From: Hymenobacter sp. 15J16-1T3B
GTDB taxonomy: Bacteria > Bacteroidota > Bacteroidia > Cytophagales > Hymenobacteraceae
Direction of reading: 5' to 3'
DNA length: 64,000 nt
NCBI RefSeq assembly: GCF_020711235.1
Contig: NZ_JAJFAV010000012.1
Coordinates: 1 to 64,000 of the forward strand
Below, piece after piece: positions 39,278 through 63,363 of the stretch. The notes beneath the pieces were generated by a model that saw only the letters and a program-made list of their open reading frames with translations, searched no databases and had not been told where the DNA came from. Each line of letters opens with the position of its first letter. The stretch's first letter is position 1. The translations under genes and the position numbers were made by a program.

Positions 39278-39285
39278 TCGTGAGT

Positions 39286-39729
39286 GGTGATGCGCCTGTA
39301 AGCCGGGTTCTGTCCGCTGCCTTGCGGCCGCGGCCCCACCATTTATCTAGGCCCGAACTTGCGCGCGGGCTCCATCAGCCTACCCGCCGACCGGACGAAC
39401 CGCCCGTTGCAGCGCCTTGCGGCGCTGCGTGCCGGCCTATTTGGCCTTTCAACCCCTGAGGTTTACCCAGCCGGACGGTCACCCGCCCGCTGGTGCGCTC
39501 TTACCGCACCTTTTCACCCTTACCAAAGGTGAAGTTGTGAAGTGGTGAAATTGTGAGTCACAACCTCGCCTTTCGCAACCTCACCGCGCTTGGCGGTAGT
39601 TTTCTGTGGCACTAGCTGTCCGGCGGCCGTTCCCAGCCGCCGTCCTTCCCGTTAGGAAGCAGGGTGCTCTGCGTTGCCCGGACTTTCCTCTCCGCCCCGA
39701 GGGGCGCAGCGGTGGGGCGGCGCATCACT
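39286..39729 (-). ncRNA. rnpB: RNase P RNA (class A), with an unusual P12 hairpin
   Basis: Read on the minus strand, the universally conserved regions are clear: GAGGAAAGTCCGGGC near the 5' end, GTGCCACAGAAA in the middle, GGTAAGGGTGAAA, and ACAGAACCCGGCTTACAGG near the 3' end. Helix P1 pairs the two ends (GTGATGCGCC with GGCGCATCAC). The catalytic RNA processes tRNA 5' ends with the RnpA protein. At about 444 nt it is long. The extra length lies partly in the P12 position, between CTACCGCC and GGTAAGGG, where a roughly 28-bp hairpin belongs to the GTGAAGTTGTGAA repeat family (39528-39585). A TACCTTTG promoter element lies just upstream. Confidence 0.97.
39528..39585. repeat. GTGAAGTTGTGAA-family inverted repeat inside rnpB (copy 2)
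   Basis: Arms 39528-39556 (begins GGTGAAGTTGTGAAGTGG) and 39558-39585 are inverses with several G-U pairs, single-base loop. It occupies the P12 helix of RNase P RNA. The arm shares the sequence of the intergenic modules at 27551 and 60562. Confidence 0.8.
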
Positions 39730-56667: not shown

Positions 56668-58095
56668 ATGCGTCTTTTTTTTGTCTTGCTGACCCTGCTG
56701 GCCGGTAGCGCCCAAGCGCAAACCACTTTTCGGCTGGCGAGCATCCCCGCCAACACCCCGGCCGGGGCCACGCTCTACGTGGCGGGTTCGTTCAACGGGT
56801 GGAACCCGAGCAGCGCCGCCCACGCCCTGGCCCCGCAGCCCGACGGCAGCTACGCTGTCACGCTGCCGGCCACGGTGACCGGGGCGCTGGAGTTCAAGTT
56901 CACCCGCGGCAGCTGGGCCGCCGTCGAAACCGACGCCCAGTATCAGGACATAGCCAACCGGCGCTACACCGCCACCGGGGCCGCGGCCACGGTCACGCTG
57001 CAAGTGCTGGGCTGGAAGGACCTGGGCGGCGCGGCGCCCTGCCAGTCGACGGCCCTGCAGCCCAACGTGCAGGTCATCAGCACCAATTTTGCCATGCCTC
57101 AGCTGCCCGGCCGCACCCGTCGGGTGTGGGTGTATTTGCCCACGGGCTACGCCAGCAGCGGCGCGCGGCGCTACCCCGTGCTCTACATGCACGACGGGCA
57201 GAACGTATTTGACCAATGCACCAGCTTTTCGGGGGAGTGGGGCGTCGACGAGGCGCTGGTTGCGCTGCAGCAGAGCGGGCAGGACCCTACCGGCTGCATC
57301 GTGGTGGCCGTGGACAACGACGGGCAGCAGCGCCTCAACGAGTATTCGCCCTGGAACAACCCGCAGTACGGCGGCGGGCAGGGCGACCAGTACGTGGACT
57401 TCCTGGTGCAGACGCTCAAGCCCTACATTGACCAGCAGTACCGCACCCTGCCCGACCGCCTGAATACGGGTATCGGGGGCAGCAGCATGGGCGGGCTGAT
57501 TTCGCTGTACGCCGCGCTGAAGTACCCGGCCGTGTTCGGGCGGGCGGCCTTGTTCTCGCCCGCGTTCTGGTTTGCCGAAGCCCCGCTCAAGGCTTACCTG
57601 CACCAGCACCGCGCCGCTGCCGGCCAGCCCACGCGCTTCTACTTCGTGGCCGGCACCCCGGAAAGCGCAACCATGGTGCCGCTGATGCAGGCCGTGCGCG
57701 ACTCGCTGCAGCGCGCGGGCTACGCCGCCACCGACCTCAACGCCCAGGCCCTGGCCGATGGGCAGCACGCGGAGTGGTTCTGGCGCCGCGAGTTTCCGGC
57801 CGCCTACCAGTGGCTGTACCGGCCCGCCACGGCCACGGCCGCGCAACCCGGCGCGGCGGCGGCTTCCTTTCAACTGTTTCCCAATCCCGCGGCCCACACG
57901 CTGACGGTGCAGCTGCCCGCCGGCTGGCGGCGCGCCCGCATGGAAATCTTGGACTCGGCCGGGCGCGTAGTGCTGCGCCGGTCCCTGCGCAGCGCCGCCG
58001 AGGCCGTGGAGGTGGGCACGCTGCGCCGCGGCAGCTACGTAGTGCGGCTGCAGAGCGAAAAAACGACCGTCAGCCAACCTTTCGTGAAAGAATAG
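56668..58095 (+). CDS. Secreted esterase (EstD/Fes-like alpha/beta hydrolase) with starch-binding-like and T9SS domains
   Basis: This 475-residue protein has a signal peptide (about 1-17, ending AQA-Q). An N-terminal CBM20/48-like domain follows (about 20-115; LYVAGSFNGWNPSS and LEFKFTRGSWAAVE). The alpha/beta hydrolase (about 130-390) has the nucleophile Ser273 in GGSSMGG, an oxyanion stretch VLYMHDGQNVFD, and a His near the end of the domain in DGQHAEWFW. The T9SS tail (about 395-475) has LFPNPAAHTL. It probably removes acyl groups from polysaccharide or oligosaccharide. It is divergent from susC and shares a motif with the promoter region of the T9SS gene at 48878. Confidence 0.9.
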   Translation: MRLFFVLLTLLAGSAQAQTTFRLASIPANTPAGATLYVAGSFNGWNPSSAAHALAPQPDGSYAVTLPATVTGALEFKFTRGSWAAVETDAQYQDIANRRYTATGAAATVTLQVLGWKDLGGAAPCQSTALQPNVQVISTNFAMPQLPGRTRRVWVYLPTGYASSGARRYPVLYMHDGQNVFDQCTSFSGEWGVDEALVALQQSGQDPTGCIVVAVDNDGQQRLNEYSPWNNPQYGGGQGDQYVDFLVQTLKPYIDQQYRTLPDRLNTGIGGSSMGGLISLYAALKYPAVFGRAALFSPAFWFAEAPLKAYLHQHRAAAGQPTRFYFVAGTPESATMVPLMQAVRDSLQRAGYAATDLNAQALADGQHAEWFWRREFPAAYQWLYRPATATAAQPGAAAASFQLFPNPAAHTLTVQLPAGWRRARMEILDSAGRVVLRRSLRSAAEAVEVGTLRRGSYVVRLQSEKTTVSQPFVKE

Positions 58096-58230
58096 GTTGA
58101 AAGAACATTAGTAGATCCGCAAAACCAGCGGCTATTCGTCGGTGAATTTTAGAGGCAGGCAATTATTTGGGTGCTTATTTTGTGAATTGTTAAAATTTTA
58201 GCTCATTGTTTAAAATATTTTGATTGTTGC

Positions 58231-58262
58231 TTGGCATCTGTTGCCAAGCCGCGGTACTTTTG
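58231..58262 (+). promoter_or_regulatory. Promoter of the trp operon
   Basis: TTG at 58231-58233 and TACTTTTG at 58255-58262 with a 21-base spacer, matching TTG-N19-21-TAnnTTTG. Transcription would start near 58268, about 16 bases before the leader peptide start. Confidence 0.75.
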
Positions 58263-58284
58263 CAGCGTCAACCATTCACTCACC

Positions 58285-58374
58285 ATGACACTTGCTTCAA
58301 CCACGCCTCTGCTGCTTTGGTGGTGGCCCAACCGTTCTGCCGGTCGGGACCTGACCATTGCGTGCATAGCCTAA
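58285..58374 (+). CDS. trpL: trp operon leader peptide with three consecutive Trp codons
   Basis: A 29-residue frame (MTLASTTPLLLWWWPNRSAG..., stop TAA at 58372) starts about 16 bases after the predicted transcription start of the trp operon. Codons 12-14 are TGG TGG TGG (58318-58326). Three Trp in a row are rare by chance and are the classic sensor of charged tRNA-Trp. A stem (CCCAACCG with CGGTCGGG, 58327-58348, one mismatch) begins right after the Trp codons. A terminator hairpin follows at 58417-58442, and trpE starts at 58490. This is the arrangement of ribosome-mediated attenuation: stalling at low Trp would favour an alternative fold that prevents termination. The alternative pairing was not proven here. 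Confidence 0.85.
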   Translation: MTLASTTPLLLWWWPNRSAGRDLTIACIA

Positions 58375-58416
58375 TTTGAAGCAGTTGACCCTGCTACTCC
58401 TGAATGCTTAGCAGTG

Positions 58417-58450
58417 CAAGCCCGGCCCGCCAGCCGGGCTTGTTGCTTTT
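58417..58450 (+). terminator. Attenuator terminator of the trp operon
   Basis: A 10-bp stem (CAAGCCCGGC and inverse, 6-nt loop, 58417-58442) followed by TTGCTTTT, 39 bases before trpE. A competing weaker stem CTGCTA/TAGCAG (58391-58414) lies directly before it. The rest of the gap from 58096 to 58230 is AT-rich with no gene seen. Confidence 0.75.
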
Positions 58451-58489: not shown

Positions 58490-59971
58490 ATGCTGCCTAC
58501 CATCACCCTGCGCACCCGCCACCTTCGCCTGCCCGCCGACACCGTCACGCCGGTGGGGCTGTACCTGCGGCTGCGCGACCAGTACCCCGGCTGCCTGCTG
58601 CTGGAAAGCTCCGACTACCACGCCCAGCAGAACGCCTTTTCTTACCTCGCCCTCGACGAACTGGCCCGCTTCGAGCTGCGCGGTGCCGAGCTGCTGGAGC
58701 GCCTGCCCGGCGGCCGGGAGCAGCGCCGCACCCTGCAGGACCCGCGCCACGAAGCCTTGGACTGCCTGCGCCAGTTTGCCGGCCGCTTTTCGGCCCCCGA
58801 AAGCGGACAGTCCTTCATCAGCGGCGGCTTGTTTGGCTTCATGGGCTACGGCGCGGCCCCGTACTGCGAGGACGTGACCTTCGACGCCGCCAAGCCCGCG
58901 CCCTACCGGCTGCCCGACGCGCGCTACGGCCTGTACCGCTACGTGCTGGCCCTGAACCACTACCGGCAGGAGCTGCACGTGTTCGAGCACACGCCCGAGG
59001 GGCAGGAGCCCGACGAAGCGGCCCTGCATCGCCTGCTGAGCGTGGTGCGCAGCCCCGTACGGCCCTCGTTCAGCTTCGCGCTGGAAGGTGAGGAGACGAC
59101 CAACCAGACCGATGACGAATTCCGCCACGTACTGGCCCAGGGGCAGCGCCACTGCCTGCGCGGCGACGTGTTTCAGATTGTCCTCTCGCGGCGCTTTCAG
59201 CAGCGTTTCCGCGGCGACGAGTTTCAGGTCTACCGCGCCCTGCGGGCCATCAACCCCTCGCCCTACCTCTTCTACTTCGACTACGGCAGCTACCGCCTGC
59301 TGGGCTCCTCGCCCGAGCCGCAGCTGCGCGTGGCGGGCGGCGAAGCCAGCATCTTCCCCATTGCCGGCACCTTCCGCCGCACCGGCCACGACGCCGAGGA
59401 CGCGGCCCTGGCCGAAAAGCTGGCCGCCGACCCCAAGGAAAATGCCGAGCACGTGATGCTAGTGGACCTGGCCCGCAACGACCTCGCCCGCCACGCCGAA
59501 TCGGTGACGGTAAAGCGCTTCCGCGAAATTCAGTACTACTCGCACGTCATTCACCTCGTCAGCCACGTGCAGGCCACCCTGGCGCCGGGCACCGACTCGC
59601 TGCAAGTGGCGGCCGATACCTTTCCGGCCGGCACGCTCTCGGGTGCCCCCAAGGTGCGGGCCATGCAGCTCATCGAAGCGCTGGAGCCCTCGGCCCGCGG
59701 CCTCTACGGCGGCTGCCTCGGTCACCTGGGCCTGGACGGCAGCTTCAACCACGCCATTTTCATCCGCTCCTTCGTGAGCGTGGGCGGCACGCTCTACTAC
59801 CAGGCGGGGGCTGGCGTGGTGGCCAAATCCGACCTCGAAGCGGAGCTCAACGAAGTACACCACAAGCTCGGCGCGCTGCGGCAGGCGCTCAAGCAGGCCG
59901 CCCGCGCCGGCGAAGAGGTGGTGGCCACCGAACTAGGCGAACGGGCACCGTTTCCCACCGCCGCGGTCTAA
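58490..59971 (+). CDS. trpE: Anthranilate synthase component I
   Basis: The 493-residue large subunit has the feedback-site motif LLES at 37-40 near the N-terminus, so inhibition by tryptophan is expected. The chorismate-binding domain (about 215-470) shows GDVFQIVLSRRF, the PIAGTFRRTG loop, ENAEHVMLVDLARND, VSHVQATL, FPAGTLSGAPKVRAM and YYQAGAGVVAKSD. With TrpG it makes anthranilate from chorismate and glutamine. The gene is the first structural gene after the leader-peptide attenuator and starts 39 bases after the terminator. TrpG follows after 22 bases. Confidence 0.97.
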   Translation: MLPTITLRTRHLRLPADTVTPVGLYLRLRDQYPGCLLLESSDYHAQQNAFSYLALDELARFELRGAELLERLPGGREQRRTLQDPRHEALDCLRQFAGRFSAPESGQSFISGGLFGFMGYGAAPYCEDVTFDAAKPAPYRLPDARYGLYRYVLALNHYRQELHVFEHTPEGQEPDEAALHRLLSVVRSPVRPSFSFALEGEETTNQTDDEFRHVLAQGQRHCLRGDVFQIVLSRRFQQRFRGDEFQVYRALRAINPSPYLFYFDYGSYRLLGSSPEPQLRVAGGEASIFPIAGTFRRTGHDAEDAALAEKLAADPKENAEHVMLVDLARNDLARHAESVTVKRFREIQYYSHVIHLVSHVQATLAPGTDSLQVAADTFPAGTLSGAPKVRAMQLIEALEPSARGLYGGCLGHLGLDGSFNHAIFIRSFVSVGGTLYYQAGAGVVAKSDLEAELNEVHHKLGALRQALKQAARAGEEVVATELGERAPFPTAAV

Positions 59972-59993: not shown

Positions 59994-60566
59994 ATGAACA
60001 TTCTCGTCTTCGACAACTACGATTCTTTCACCTACAACCTGGTGCAGGTGCTGCGCGAGCTGGGCCACGGCGCCCGGCTGACGGTGCGTCGCAACGACCA
60101 GCTCGACTTGGACGAGGTAGCGGCCTACGACGCGGTGCTCTTGTCGCCCGGCCCCGGCGTGCCGTCGGAAGCCGGGCTGATGCCCGCACTGATTCAGCGC
60201 TACGCCCCCGTCAAACGCATTTTGGGCGTGTGCCTGGGCCACCAGGGCATAGCCGAGAGCTTCGGCGCCGAGCTGGTGAACCTCACCGAGGTGCACCACG
60301 GCGTGGCCAGCCAGGCCACCGTGACGGTGCCCGACGAGCGGCTGTTTCAGGGGCTGCCGGCGCAGTTCAACGTGGGCCGCTACCACTCCTGGGCCGTGCG
60401 CCCCGGCTCGTTGCCCGACGCGCTGGAAGCCACTGCCCACGACAGCAGCGGCGAAATCATGGCCCTGCGCCACCGCCACTACGACGTGCGCGGGGTGCAG
60501 TTTCACCCCGAATCGGTGCTGACCGAGCACGGCCACCAGCTGCTCAGCAATTGGCTGGAAAGGTGA
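59994..60566 (+). CDS. trpG: Anthranilate synthase component II (glutamine amidotransferase)
   Basis: This 190-residue class I amidotransferase has FDNYDSFTYNL at 6-16, the GPGVPSEAG oxyanion loop near 53-61, catalytic Cys80 in LGVCLGHQGIAE, and His171/Glu173 in GVQFHPESVLTEHG. It supplies ammonia to TrpE. It could also serve para-aminobenzoate synthesis, as trpG sometimes does, since no pabA is in view. The final codons run directly into an inverted-repeat module whose first bases provide the TGA stop (60564-60566). Confidence 0.96.
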   Translation: MNILVFDNYDSFTYNLVQVLRELGHGARLTVRRNDQLDLDEVAAYDAVLLSPGPGVPSEAGLMPALIQRYAPVKRILGVCLGHQGIAESFGAELVNLTEVHHGVASQATVTVPDERLFQGLPAQFNVGRYHSWAVRPGSLPDALEATAHDSSGEIMALRHRHYDVRGVQFHPESVLTEHGHQLLSNWLER

Positions 60567-60656
60567 AGTTGTGAAGTAGTGAAAGGTGAATGGACTAACG
60601 CTGTCAATAGCCTTCACGCCCGAGCCAAACCGCTCTTCACAAGCTCACCACTTCCC
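60562..60656. repeat. GTGAAGTTGTGAA-family module overlapping the trpG stop (copy 3)
   Basis: The left arm GGTGAAGTTGTGAA (60562-60575) and right arm TTCACAAGCTCACC (60636-60649) are inverses with two mismatches. The left arm is followed by further GTGAA words. The module occupies the trpG-trpD gap and includes the trpG stop codon. Confidence 0.75.
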
Positions 60657-60671
60657 AAATACACCCTTGCA

Positions 60672-61667
60672 ATGAAAGACCTGCTCACCGCCTTATTCGA
60701 CCACCACACCCTGAGCCGCCCTGAGGCGCACGCGCTGATGCTGCGCCTGGGCGAAGGGGAGGTCACGGACGTGGAAGCGGCTGCCCTGCTGGCCGTCTAC
60801 CGCATGCGCCCCATCACCGTGCCCGAGCTGGCCGGCTTCCGCGACGCGCTGCTGGAGCTGTGCCGCGACCCGGAGCTGGGTACCCACGAAGTGCTCGACA
60901 TCGTGGGCACCGGCGGCGACGGGAAGGCCACGCTCAACATCAGCACCCTGGCTTCCTTCGTGGTGGCCGGCGCCGGCTACAAGGTGGCCAAGCACGGCAA
61001 CTTTGGGGTGTCGTCGCCGGTGGGCTCCAGCAACGTGCTGGCTTACTTCGGCTACGACTTCGACGCCGGCCCCGACCGCCTGCGCCGCCAGCTCGACGCG
61101 GCCGGCATCTGCTTTCTGCACGCGCCGGCCTACCACCCGGCCATGCGCCGCGTGGCCCCGGTGCGCCGCGACCTGGGCGTGCGCACCTTCTTCAACATGC
61201 TCGGGCCGCTGATCAACCCGGCCCGGCCGGCGGCGCAGCTGCTGGGCGTGTACAGCTTGGAGCTGCTGCGCCTCTACCAATACCTGCTCGAAGACGCCGG
61301 CACGCGCTACGCCGTGGTACACGCCCTCGACGGCTACGACGAGCTGAGCCTCACCGGCGAGGCCAAAATTGCCACCTCCGCCGAGGGCGAGCAGCTGCTC
61401 ACGGCCGAAGCCCTGGGCCTGCCCGTGTGCCAGGCCGAGGAGCTGGCCGGCGGGCAGTCGGTGGAGGGCTCGGCGCGCATCTTCCGCGACGTGCTCGACG
61501 GCAAAGGTACCCGCGCCCAGTGCGACGTGGTGGCCGCCAACGCCGCCCTCGGCATCCGCTGCATCAACCCCCAGGTGTCGCTGGCCGACGCCCTCGAAGC
61601 CGCCTACGACTCGCTCGATTCCGGCCGCGCCCGCCGCGCCTTCATCGGCCTGCTAAACACGCAGTAG
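60672..61667 (+). CDS. trpD: Anthranilate phosphoribosyltransferase
   Basis: The start is the ATG giving MKDLLTALFDHH; upstream in-frame sequence is repeat DNA. The 331-residue enzyme has the PRPP loop DIVGTGGDGKATLNISTLASFV (about 78-99), the KHGNFGVSSPVGSSNVL segment (about 107-123) and the FFNMLGPLINPA motif (about 175-186). The SSPVGS replaces the commoner SSxSGS/SGSADL pattern, a variant I recall from other Bacteroidota TrpD proteins. It attaches phosphoribose to anthranilate. Length is normal. Confidence 0.95.
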   Translation: MKDLLTALFDHHTLSRPEAHALMLRLGEGEVTDVEAAALLAVYRMRPITVPELAGFRDALLELCRDPELGTHEVLDIVGTGGDGKATLNISTLASFVVAGAGYKVAKHGNFGVSSPVGSSNVLAYFGYDFDAGPDRLRRQLDAAGICFLHAPAYHPAMRRVAPVRRDLGVRTFFNMLGPLINPARPAAQLLGVYSLELLRLYQYLLEDAGTRYAVVHALDGYDELSLTGEAKIATSAEGEQLLTAEALGLPVCQAEELAGGQSVEGSARIFRDVLDGKGTRAQCDVVAANAALGIRCINPQVSLADALEAAYDSLDSGRARRAFIGLLNTQ

Positions 61668-61802
61668 GGCTTCGTAGAGGAGCTTGCGCCTGCTCGCTGC
61701 GCACGGAAAACACTACCCGACGATGGAGGCGCAAGGTTGCATCTCGACGCCAGGATCTTACCATACTAACAACTCAACAGACCTCCCGAGTCGTCAGGCT
61801 TG

Positions 61803-61822
61803 CCCTCTCCCCAAGGAGAGGG
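61803..61822. repeat. Palindrome CCCTCTCC/GGAGAGGG just before trpC
   Basis: An 8-bp stem with a CCAA loop ends 19 bases before the trpC ATG, followed by a G-rich GGGGGTGAGG stretch. The rest of the 174-base trpD-trpC gap (61668-61841) has no gene; it includes a loose inverted pair around GCGCCTGC and GAGGCGCAAGG. Confidence 0.65.
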
Positions 61823-61841
61823 GCCGGGGGTGAGGTTTCCC

Positions 61842-62675
61842 ATGACAACGACCCTGAACACCCCCGACGTGCTGGCCCGCATTGTGGCCCACAAGCGGCA
61901 GGAAGTGGCCGAGCGCCGCGGCCTGGTGCCCGACAAGCTGCTGGAGCGCAGTCAATACCTCGACGCGCCCACGCTGTCCTTGCGCGGCTACCTGCGCCGG
62001 CCCGAGCTGAGCGGCATCATCGCCGAGTTCAAGCGCCGCTCGCCCTCCAAAGGCTGGATCAACGAGTTTGCGCCGGTGGAGCGCACCACGCTGGGCTACA
62101 TGCAGGCCGGCGCTGCCGCCTTGTCGGTGCTGACGGATACCGAGTTTTTCGGCGGCAAAAACGAGGACCTGACCACGGCCCGGCGCTTCAACCTATGCCC
62201 GATTTTGCGCAAGGACTTCGTGGTGGACGCCTACCAACTGCTCGAAGCCCGCAGCATTGGTGCCGACGCGGTGCTGCTCATTGCCAGCGTACTCACGCCC
62301 CAGCAAATCCGCGAGCTGGGCCTGCAGGCGCAGGGCCTGGGCCTGGAAGTGCTGCTGGAAGTGCACGACAAGGAAGAGCTGGACCGCACGCTCGACGTGG
62401 CCCACGATGCCATCGACCTGGTGGGCGTAAACAACCGCGACCTGCGCGACTTCTCCGTGTCCTTGGAGCGCAGCCTGCAGCTGGTGGAGCACCTGCCGGC
62501 CCAGTTAGGCAAGGTGGCCGAAAGCGGCCTGCGCACCGCCCAGGACATCGATACGCTGCGCCGGGCCAGTTTTGAGGGCTTCCTCATCGGTGAAACGTTT
62601 ATGCGCCACAGCCGCCCCGATCGGGCCTGCGCCGCCTTGGTGCAGCAACTGCGCGAACTATCGGCCGCCCGCTAG
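61842..62675 (+). CDS. trpC: Indole-3-glycerol phosphate synthase
   Basis: The ATG giving MTTTLNTPDVLARIV is chosen; the frame continues upstream through the palindromic repeat, which is not coding in relatives. The 277-residue TIM-barrel has the conserved AEFKRRSPSKGWIN (Lys and Ser of the active site, near 58-71), a SVLTDTEFFGGKNED segment, CPILRKDFVVDAYQ, DLVGVNNRDLRDF and VAESGLRTAQDI. It closes CdRP to indole-glycerol phosphate. TrpF is encoded separately 13 bases downstream. Confidence 0.95.
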   Translation: MTTTLNTPDVLARIVAHKRQEVAERRGLVPDKLLERSQYLDAPTLSLRGYLRRPELSGIIAEFKRRSPSKGWINEFAPVERTTLGYMQAGAAALSVLTDTEFFGGKNEDLTTARRFNLCPILRKDFVVDAYQLLEARSIGADAVLLIASVLTPQQIRELGLQAQGLGLEVLLEVHDKEELDRTLDVAHDAIDLVGVNNRDLRDFSVSLERSLQLVEHLPAQLGKVAESGLRTAQDIDTLRRASFEGFLIGETFMRHSRPDRACAALVQQLRELSAAR

Positions 62676-62688
62676 CCTTATCAGCGCT

Positions 62689-63363
62689 ATGACCGTTTCC
62701 GCTGCCACCCTCACGCCCGCGCTGCCCAGCCCGCACCCCGACCGGCCGCTGCTAAAAGTGTGCGGGCTGAAATACCCCGCCAACGTGGCCGCCGTGGCCG
62801 CGCTGCCGGTGGACATGCTCGGCTTCATCTTCGCCCCAAAGTCGCCGCGCTACGCGCCCACGGCCCTGGACGCGGCCCAGCTGCGGGCCTTGCCGGTGGC
62901 CAAGGTCGGCGTGTTCGTCGACGAGCAGCCGGCGGTCATTCGCCGCACGGCCCTGCACTTCGGCCTCACGGCCGTGCAGCTGCACGGGCAGGAGTCGCCG
63001 GCCGACTGCGCGGCGCTGGCCGCCGCCGGGCTGCCGGTGCTCAAGGCCGTTGGGGTGGGGGAGCAGCTCGACCTCGGCCGCCTGGAAGCCTACGCCCCGC
63101 ACTGCGCCTACTTCGTGTTCGACGCGGCCGGGCCGGCGGCGGGCGGCAACGGCACCACCTTCAACTGGGACCTGCTGCGCGACTACGACCTGCCCACGCC
63201 CTACCTACTGGCCGGGGGCCTCGGGCCCGACCACGCCGCCACGCTGCGGGCGCTGCAGCTGCCGGGCCTCGCGGGCTTCGACGTGAACAGCCGCTTCGAG
63301 CAAGGGCCCGGACTAAAAGACGCGGCGCGGCTGCGCACGTTTATCGACGAACTGCGCGGGTAG
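62689..63363 (+). CDS. trpF: Phosphoribosylanthranilate isomerase
   Basis: The start is the ATG giving MTVSAATLTPALP; the frame continues upstream through trpC and is not used. The 224-residue TIM-barrel has the catalytic KVCGLKYPANV (near 23-33), the GFIFAPKSPRYAP motif, VGVFVDEQ and AVQLHGQESP. The C-terminal phosphate-binding segments are LLAGGLGPDHA and GFDVNSRFEQGPGLKD. It converts PRA to CdRP between TrpD and TrpC steps. Start spacing (13 bases) shows it is in the trp operon. Confidence 0.94.
   Translation: MTVSAATLTPALPSPHPDRPLLKVCGLKYPANVAAVAALPVDMLGFIFAPKSPRYAPTALDAAQLRALPVAKVGVFVDEQPAVIRRTALHFGLTAVQLHGQESPADCAALAAAGLPVLKAVGVGEQLDLGRLEAYAPHCAYFVFDAAGPAAGGNGTTFNWDLLRDYDLPTPYLLAGGLGPDHAATLRALQLPGLAGFDVNSRFEQGPGLKDAARLRTFIDELRG

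Follow-up and report, generated by a model that had tools for sequence, protein, structure and literature searches.

The trp operon of Hymenobacter sp. 15J16-1T3B is very probably controlled by a transcription attenuator in which the ribosome senses charged tRNA-Trp. The element lies near the end of the window, by which we mean the whole 64,000-nucleotide stretch of DNA analysed (positions 1 to 64,000 of contig NZ_JAJFAV010000012.1). Its short leader frame, the tryptophan codons within that frame, the terminator, the competing fold and their conservation rest on sequence, folding and comparison with relatives. An earlier sequence-only reading had interpreted the element as a ribosome-stalling attenuator, and the present analysis supports that interpretation.

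The trp operon and its promoter

The genes 3′ of the attenuator are ordered trpEGDCF, all on the forward strand. First is trpE (58490–59971), encoding anthranilate synthase component I (TIGR00564, E = 1.5e-117; 393.5 bits, under the curated cut-off of 517.7), whose product is 66–70% identical to its best ten matches, all named Hymenobacter. It is followed by trpG, encoding anthranilate synthase component II (59994–60566; TIGR00566, 182.5 bits, above cut-off), and by open frames for trpD (60579–61667; TIGR01245, 313.4 bits, above cut-off, residues 37–353), trpC (61800–62675; NF001377, 269.2 bits, above cut-off) and trpF (62572–63363; NF002295, E = 8.3e-44, under cut-off, matching from residue 61); the true starts of trpD and trpF are probably further in. 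Directly upstream of the trp promoter, the same strand encodes an esterase-like protein with a T9SS type A sorting domain (56668–58095).

Direct reading of the forward strand revealed a Bacteroidota-type −7 box, TACTTTTG, at 58255–58262, which follows the consensus TAnnTTTG given, together with a spacing of 4–5 nt to the transcription start, in the accessible text of PMC6847099. Applying this spacing places the predicted start at 58267–58268 and leaves a predicted 5′ UTR of 17–18 nt before the leader ATG; the earlier estimate was about 16 bases. The box is unchanged in 7/7 aligned congeners, and position 58231, at which the feature had been taken to begin, is the TTG of the −33 position.

This −33 region is overlapped by a perfect 8-bp inverted repeat, GCTTGGCA-N5-TGCCAAGC (58229–58249), and a DNA-binding repressor acting at the dyad could in principle control the operon and make the leader secondary. 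The dyad is the sole 0-mismatch match in the window and the sole exact TTGGCA-N5-TGCCAA site in the genome; a single site, however, gives no regulon, the dyad was not seen in the alignment with the seven congeners, and the repressor TrpR (PF01371) was found in none of 18 genomes, the named control genomes being positive. The dyad, unique in the genome and not seen in the seven congeners, was dropped as a control site, and we regard repressor control as very unlikely. Two further regulators, TRAP (PF02081) and the T-box (RF00230), likewise gave no match in any of 18 genomes, which for the T-box included the window's own, and were recovered in the named control genomes.

A tryptophan leader and an intrinsic terminator precede trpE

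Downstream of the promoter, on the forward strand, the leader peptide frame MTLASTTPLLLWWWPNRSAGRDLTIACIA (58285–58374; ATG start, 29 codons plus TAA) carries the control codons TGG-TGG-TGG at 58318–58326. Its stop codon lies 45 nt past the last of these, so that a translating ribosome would pass through segment 2 of the RNA, described below. Direct reading found no purine-rich Shine-Dalgarno stretch ahead of the leader ATG, and the leader is presumably translated efficiently without one. A scan of the window for further leaders recovered the trp leader itself and, beyond it, just one SSS frame, which lies on the minus strand and is unconvincing.

In the minimum-energy fold of the unmasked leader, segments 1 and 2 form a local hairpin immediately after the tryptophan codons (58327–58334 with 58341–58348). 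Further downstream, direct reading and folding both revealed an intrinsic terminator (58417–58450, forward strand), made of the arms CAAGCCCGGC (58417–58426) and GCCGGGCTTG (58433–58442) followed by TTGCTTTT and ending at 58450; its 5′ arm is segment 3. The T tract TTGCTTTT is interrupted, which counts against reading the element as an attenuator. The fold of 58268–58450 as a whole reached −67.9 kcal/mol (z = −3.51), a value equalled by 0/200 shuffles. Thus the anatomy proposed from the letters alone, namely a consensus-type promoter, a 29-codon frame with three consecutive TGG codons, a stem right after them and a GC-rich terminator ahead of trpE, was borne out.

A whole-window Rfam scan at gathering score returned only RNase P RNA of bacterial class A (39283–39728, minus strand, 244.6 bits). 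Weak matches at E ≤ 10 (isrJ, rnk_pseudo, snoTBR2 and others) were below their cut-offs and were judged chance.

The terminator arm has a competing partner

The sequence-only reading had suggested folding the leader to look for mutually exclusive terminator and antiterminator states, and such a competing fold was found. Stalled-ribosome folds were computed with the RNA masked up to 58333 or 58339 and made up to 58431. With the ribosome at the first or third tryptophan codon, the stretch CCCGGCC of the terminator 5′ arm (58421–58427) pairs with GGTCGGG (58342–58348, forward strand), the antiterminator strand that constitutes segment 2. A second antiterminator helix is predicted in the window between CATTGC (58356–58361, forward strand) and GCAGTG (58411–58416). 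Once the ribosome has reached the stop codon, CCCGGCC is unpaired and the terminator forms; when the RNA carries no ribosome, the stretch just 5′ of segment 2 sequesters it, and four of the core bases pair weakly with 58384–58387. At equilibrium the full stalled RNA favours the terminator (a state of −42.5 kcal/mol), and antitermination must therefore be kinetic.

Taken alone, the antiterminator duplex of the window is borderline against shuffles, with p = 0.05 for the 5′ arm as target and p = 0.154 for the larger target; the former target comprised the terminator 5′ arm plus 4 nt, and the latter was widened to capture a flavobacterial pairing with the loop. Across 98 loci, an RNA's own segment paired with its own terminator better than shuffles at p ≤ 0.05 in 63 and missed this level in 35, as compared to 18/98 when terminators were swapped between loci.

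We folded 21 window-type leaders in the stalled state, of which 8 come from the window's genus and 13 from Hymenobacter. In all 21, the terminator arm pairs 16–21 nt past the last tryptophan codon through 4–6 of 6 core bases, and this position is kept despite differing linker lengths. With shuffled middles, pairing at the fixed position occurred in 46/1050 cases and pairing of the core anywhere in 672/1050; what is rare relative to shuffles is hence the fixed position only, not core pairing as such. Five Hymenobacter loci with another leader type (WWHSTFPKG-like; L017, L019, L024, L103 and L108) were kept apart from the 21: here, 8/11 arm bases pair 23–42 nt past the last W, and 18–25 of 100 shuffles do likewise. 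In 46/103 loci, a count made without a shuffle control, the stretch from the last W to the terminator contains a GTGAR motif, which stands 16–25 nt after the W in all save two.

Covariation was scored on an alignment of 15 of the 21 window-type leaders. The terminator was paired in 98.6% of cells and, in its best register, reached a covariation score of 0.160, attained by 0/500 shuffles; in two of its pairs both partners had changed, a number equalled by 136/500 shuffles. The antiterminator was paired in 86.7% of cells and scored 0, its strands being nearly invariant and therefore silent in such a test, and pair counts for the 1:2 hairpin were not above shuffles. Of the conserved tryptophan codons and covarying stems looked for in aligned leaders, the codons and, by score, the terminator were supported, and pair counting lent no support to the antiterminator or the 1:2 hairpin.

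Two classical marks of attenuators are present outright: firstly, codons for the operon's own product are clustered in a short upstream frame (WWW before trpE); secondly, an intrinsic terminator lies between leader and first gene (58417–58450). A third, an exclusive antiterminator freed by a stalled ribosome, is seen in silico only.

The leader and its terminator are conserved before trpE

To follow the element in relatives, we used trpE loci picked by similarity to the TrpE of the window; loci L111–L146 were left out of these analyses as such. An ATG frame of 8–60 codons containing WW within 350 nt upstream of trpE occurred in 99/109 loci, as compared to 35/4360 dinucleotide shuffles and 2/109 loci on the reverse strand, and WWW occurred in 76/109 loci and 0/4360 shuffles. 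A hairpin with T tract at or below −15 kcal/mol followed the last tryptophan codon in 98/104 loci and 1/312 shuffles (101/104 and 29/312, respectively, at −10 kcal/mol). Where the hairpin was −10 or stronger, the terminator began 47–83 nt past the last W in 99/101 loci and 105 and 110 nt past it in the other two.

We then removed redundancy, dropping L089 as a duplicate of L002 and five further duplicates (repeated genomes or identical stretches). A WW leader lies within 700 nt of trpE in 98/104 non-redundant loci, and 78 of the 98 leaders have WWW. In 95 of these 98 the terminator reaches −15 kcal/mol or stronger, including L084 and L088, for which it was set by hand because the T tract is interrupted; it is weaker in L006, L076 and L100. 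Among the misses, L041 has a WW frame far upstream, lacking a terminator and judged spurious, and L040 and L063 offer only 174 and 107 nt of upstream sequence, whereas L066, L075 and L110 are true misses with no WW frame within 700 nt of trpE; in L075, WRW replaces WW at the expected place, in MTTFITNNHWRWHTISS. All seven congeners have an intact WW or WWW frame. That homologous leaders keep their in-frame tryptophan codons, on which the stalling interpretation had been staked, is therefore confirmed both in congeners and across the non-redundant loci.

We also examined a class-wide sample. TrpE was found at E ≤ 1e-110 in 63 of 197 sampled Bacteroidia genomes, with 64 matches. We used 58 of these, setting aside G000, G011 and G016 (already represented), G250 and G341 (at contig ends) and a second copy in G213. 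A WW frame was present in 42/58 upstream stretches, and in 39/58 it was accompanied by a terminator at or below −12. The TAnnTTTG box precedes an in-frame leader ATG in 111/148 units and is absent in 37/148; shuffling these stretches produced the motif in 10.8% of cases.

These comparisons also bear on a second alternative, in which the frame encodes a trans-acting peptide, as peTrpL does in Sinorhizobium, and the terminator serves just to produce a short RNA. A trans role for a Trp leader peptide has indeed been reported in Sinorhizobium, according to the available text of PMC7298713, and GRD or GRE after the tryptophan codons is common to most window-type leaders. However, these shared residues overlie antiterminator segment 2; where they are replaced, by IGPACLC in L009, L010 and L092, 4–5 of 6 core bases still pair at the same place, and across the class the N- and C-termini of the leader vary freely. 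Since the residues change where the pairing is kept, we consider it very unlikely that the frame serves mainly to encode a trans-acting peptide, although the leader peptide may have an additional trans role beside attenuation.

Proposed mechanism

We propose that the element works as an attenuator in the following way; we infer leader translation, stalling, the timing of polymerase and ribosome, and the response to tryptophan. Transcription would start near 58267, and a ribosome would start the leader at 58285. If Trp-tRNA is scarce, the ribosome would halt on the tryptophan codons and cover segment 1; segment 2 (58342–58348), thereby freed, would pair with the emerging terminator 5′ arm (58421–58427), and the polymerase would read into trpE. 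If Trp-tRNA is ample, the ribosome would move on across segment 2 and reach the stop codon, leaving the 58417–58442 hairpin to terminate transcription. Were the leader left untranslated, segments 1 and 2 would pair and the terminator would form as well.

Also very unlikely, we judge, is a nascent peptide that senses free tryptophan in the manner of TnaC: tryptophan residues do lie in a short leader ahead of a Trp-related operon, but this operon is biosynthetic and expected to be repressed on tryptophan excess, and its leaders keep runs of two to three tryptophans and little else, which suits codon counting rather than a binding peptide, TnaC itself having residue requirements for sensing free tryptophan.

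An attenuator of the proposed kind needs a ribosome close behind the polymerase. The element being conserved, coupling would be required at the leader across Bacteroidia if the switch works as inferred. This would mean transcription-translation coupling at a trp leader in a phylum whose translation starts do not use Shine-Dalgarno sequences, and would turn the trp operon into a ready-made assay for such coupling.

Serial units, predicted near-leaderless leaders and other amino-acid leaders

In 10/167 loci (9 without the duplicate L097), two Trp units stand in series before trpE. These are L012 and L015 (Rufibacter), L093, L095, L096 and L101 (same genus), and L043, L051 and L080 (Maribellus/Draconibacterium); the Rufibacter and Maribellus/Draconibacterium tandems are probably of separate origin. 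In each tandem the two terminators are at or below −10, and antiterminator pairing reached p ≤ 0.055 in all 20 rows. In the six Rufibacter-type loci, a TAnnTTTG box stands on the first unit and none on the second; L043 and L051 have no box on either unit, and L080 has one on the second only. Inspection of 21/109 loci revealed one more locus, L094, with two WW frames, of which the first terminator did not score. Serial two-unit attenuators constitute a natural experiment on dose response.

Leader frames often begin close to the predicted transcript end. Among 111 boxed units, 13 have 4 nt between the end of the −7 box and the leader ATG and 65 have 4–14 nt, and in these 65 the ATG lies 12–22 nt past the start of the box, equivalent to a predicted 5′ UTR of 0–10 nt; these distances are biased short because the box nearest the tryptophan codons was chosen, and a few duplicate genomes enter the counts. 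Units with such short distances include L012, L056, L093, L155, L185, L191, L195 and L198, among others. By comparison, PMC6847099 gives a 5′ UTR longer than 10 nt for 87% of those F. johnsoniae transcripts that have a probable promoter. Judged from box positions, we predict these leader-peptide transcripts to be leaderless or nearly so.

Leaders for other amino acids were also seen. Upstream of hisG, a short frame carrying at least HHH was present in 10/10 loci of the window's genus and Hymenobacter (L216–L225) and in 0/11 other genomes of the order. In the window's own genome (L217), the His leader upstream of hisG is MSLVASLRFSLSPAVPHWGAAAGHAGHHHHHSSPGEE, and a TAnnTTTG box starts 32 nt upstream of its ATG. 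In 6/10 loci the His leader is followed, at varying places, by a T-tract hairpin at or below −12, so that it makes a less complete attenuator. Upstream of ilvD-family genes, 3/18 loci (L230, L234 and L237) have short frames with many Ile, Val and Leu residues, such as MFANIIVVVVVILCTQTV, followed by a terminator; these are possible branched-chain leaders.

The tandem Trp units, the leader frames almost at the predicted 5′ end and the His leader found before hisG in the family were not met in the portions of the literature compared. Together, these observations lead us to a broader proposal, for and against which we see even chances: Trp leader attenuation would be ancestral to Bacteroidia, the known RNA family would cover a small part of it, the leader would often lie near the transcript 5′ end, and some lineages would have two serial units, a two-gate design that reads one signal twice.

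Relation to known systems

The E. coli trp attenuator has adjacent Trp codons, pairings between segments 1:2, 2:3 and 3:4, and Trp-tRNA as its signal, and the window shares this logic with trpL (RF00513). Unlike trpL, the window element has a Bacteroidota promoter, no Shine-Dalgarno sequence, no TrpR and a stop codon well past the last Trp codon, and the RF00513 Trp_leader model found no match in the window at gathering score or at E ≤ 10.

Within the phylum, reportedly, Lopatovskaya et al. 2010 cover attenuators of Bacteroidetes/Chlorobi. The nearest RNA family is RF01692, 'Bacteroid-trp' or 'Bacteroidete tryptophan peptide leader RNA', which is listed in Table 1 of Weinberg et al. 2010 (PMC2864571), the part of that paper used here. 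Like the window element, it is a leader peptide RNA with Trp codons before Bacteroidetes trp genes, and its model alignment ends in the terminator 5′ arm. The window element differs in that its leader frame runs through segment 2, its stems are GC-rich and its primary sequence is another. In the window, RF01692 had no match at E ≤ 10, its gathering score of 49 bits being unreached, and it had none in 14 genomes of the window's genus and Hymenobacter. It does match 2/20 relatives' loci (L046 and L053), at the same position before trpE as the leader of the window. In the class scan, run with Infernal's stricter filters, RF01692 exceeded its cut-off in 9/197 genomes, all 9 among the 63 with a TrpE like that of the window. 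Set against the 39/58 stretches recognised by anatomy, these 9/63 genomes indicate that annotation by RF01692 under-reports the attenuator. In L188, L192, L196 and L197, four genomes without a unit, an RF01692 match lies farther away from trpE, some 1.3 kb upstream, presumably ahead of a different trp gene.

The sequence-only reading had called ribosome-stalling attenuation best described in Proteobacteria; the logic carries over, but the literature also covers Bacteroidota. Besides RF01692, the accessible text of a Flavobacterium psychrophilum transcriptome paper has a sentence that precedes this finding of a Bacteroidota leader (PMC9723704), and that of a Bacteroides thetaiotaomicron study describes short frames in 5′ UTRs reminiscent of leader peptides (PMC7366714). 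Hymenobacter is absent from the best-matching literature on Trp leader-peptide attenuation among the matches listed, as far as the text of those sources extends. An origin of amino-acid attenuators in gamma-proteobacteria has been suggested (PMC3766115, in the text available); that study used four Rfam models, and the class-wide pattern seen here speaks against a gamma-proteobacterial limit.

More distant systems share anatomy or arrangement. The Trp attenuators of Corynebacterium and Streptomyces, as given in the text available for PMC1262725, resemble the window element in having a leader with double or triple UGG, an antiterminator and a GC-rich terminator, but they belong to another phylum, with other promoters and sequences, and the likeness drawn here is one of anatomy. 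Salmonella mgtCBR, as outlined in the available portion of PMC3641672, places two leader ORFs and attenuators serially on one transcript, as in the Rufibacter loci; it reads two signals, ATP and proline, whereas the Bacteroidota tandems are two Trp units and the window has one. The attenuator of the window is of a known functional kind, beyond the reach of the existing RNA model, and the surprise lies in its relatives rather than in the window.
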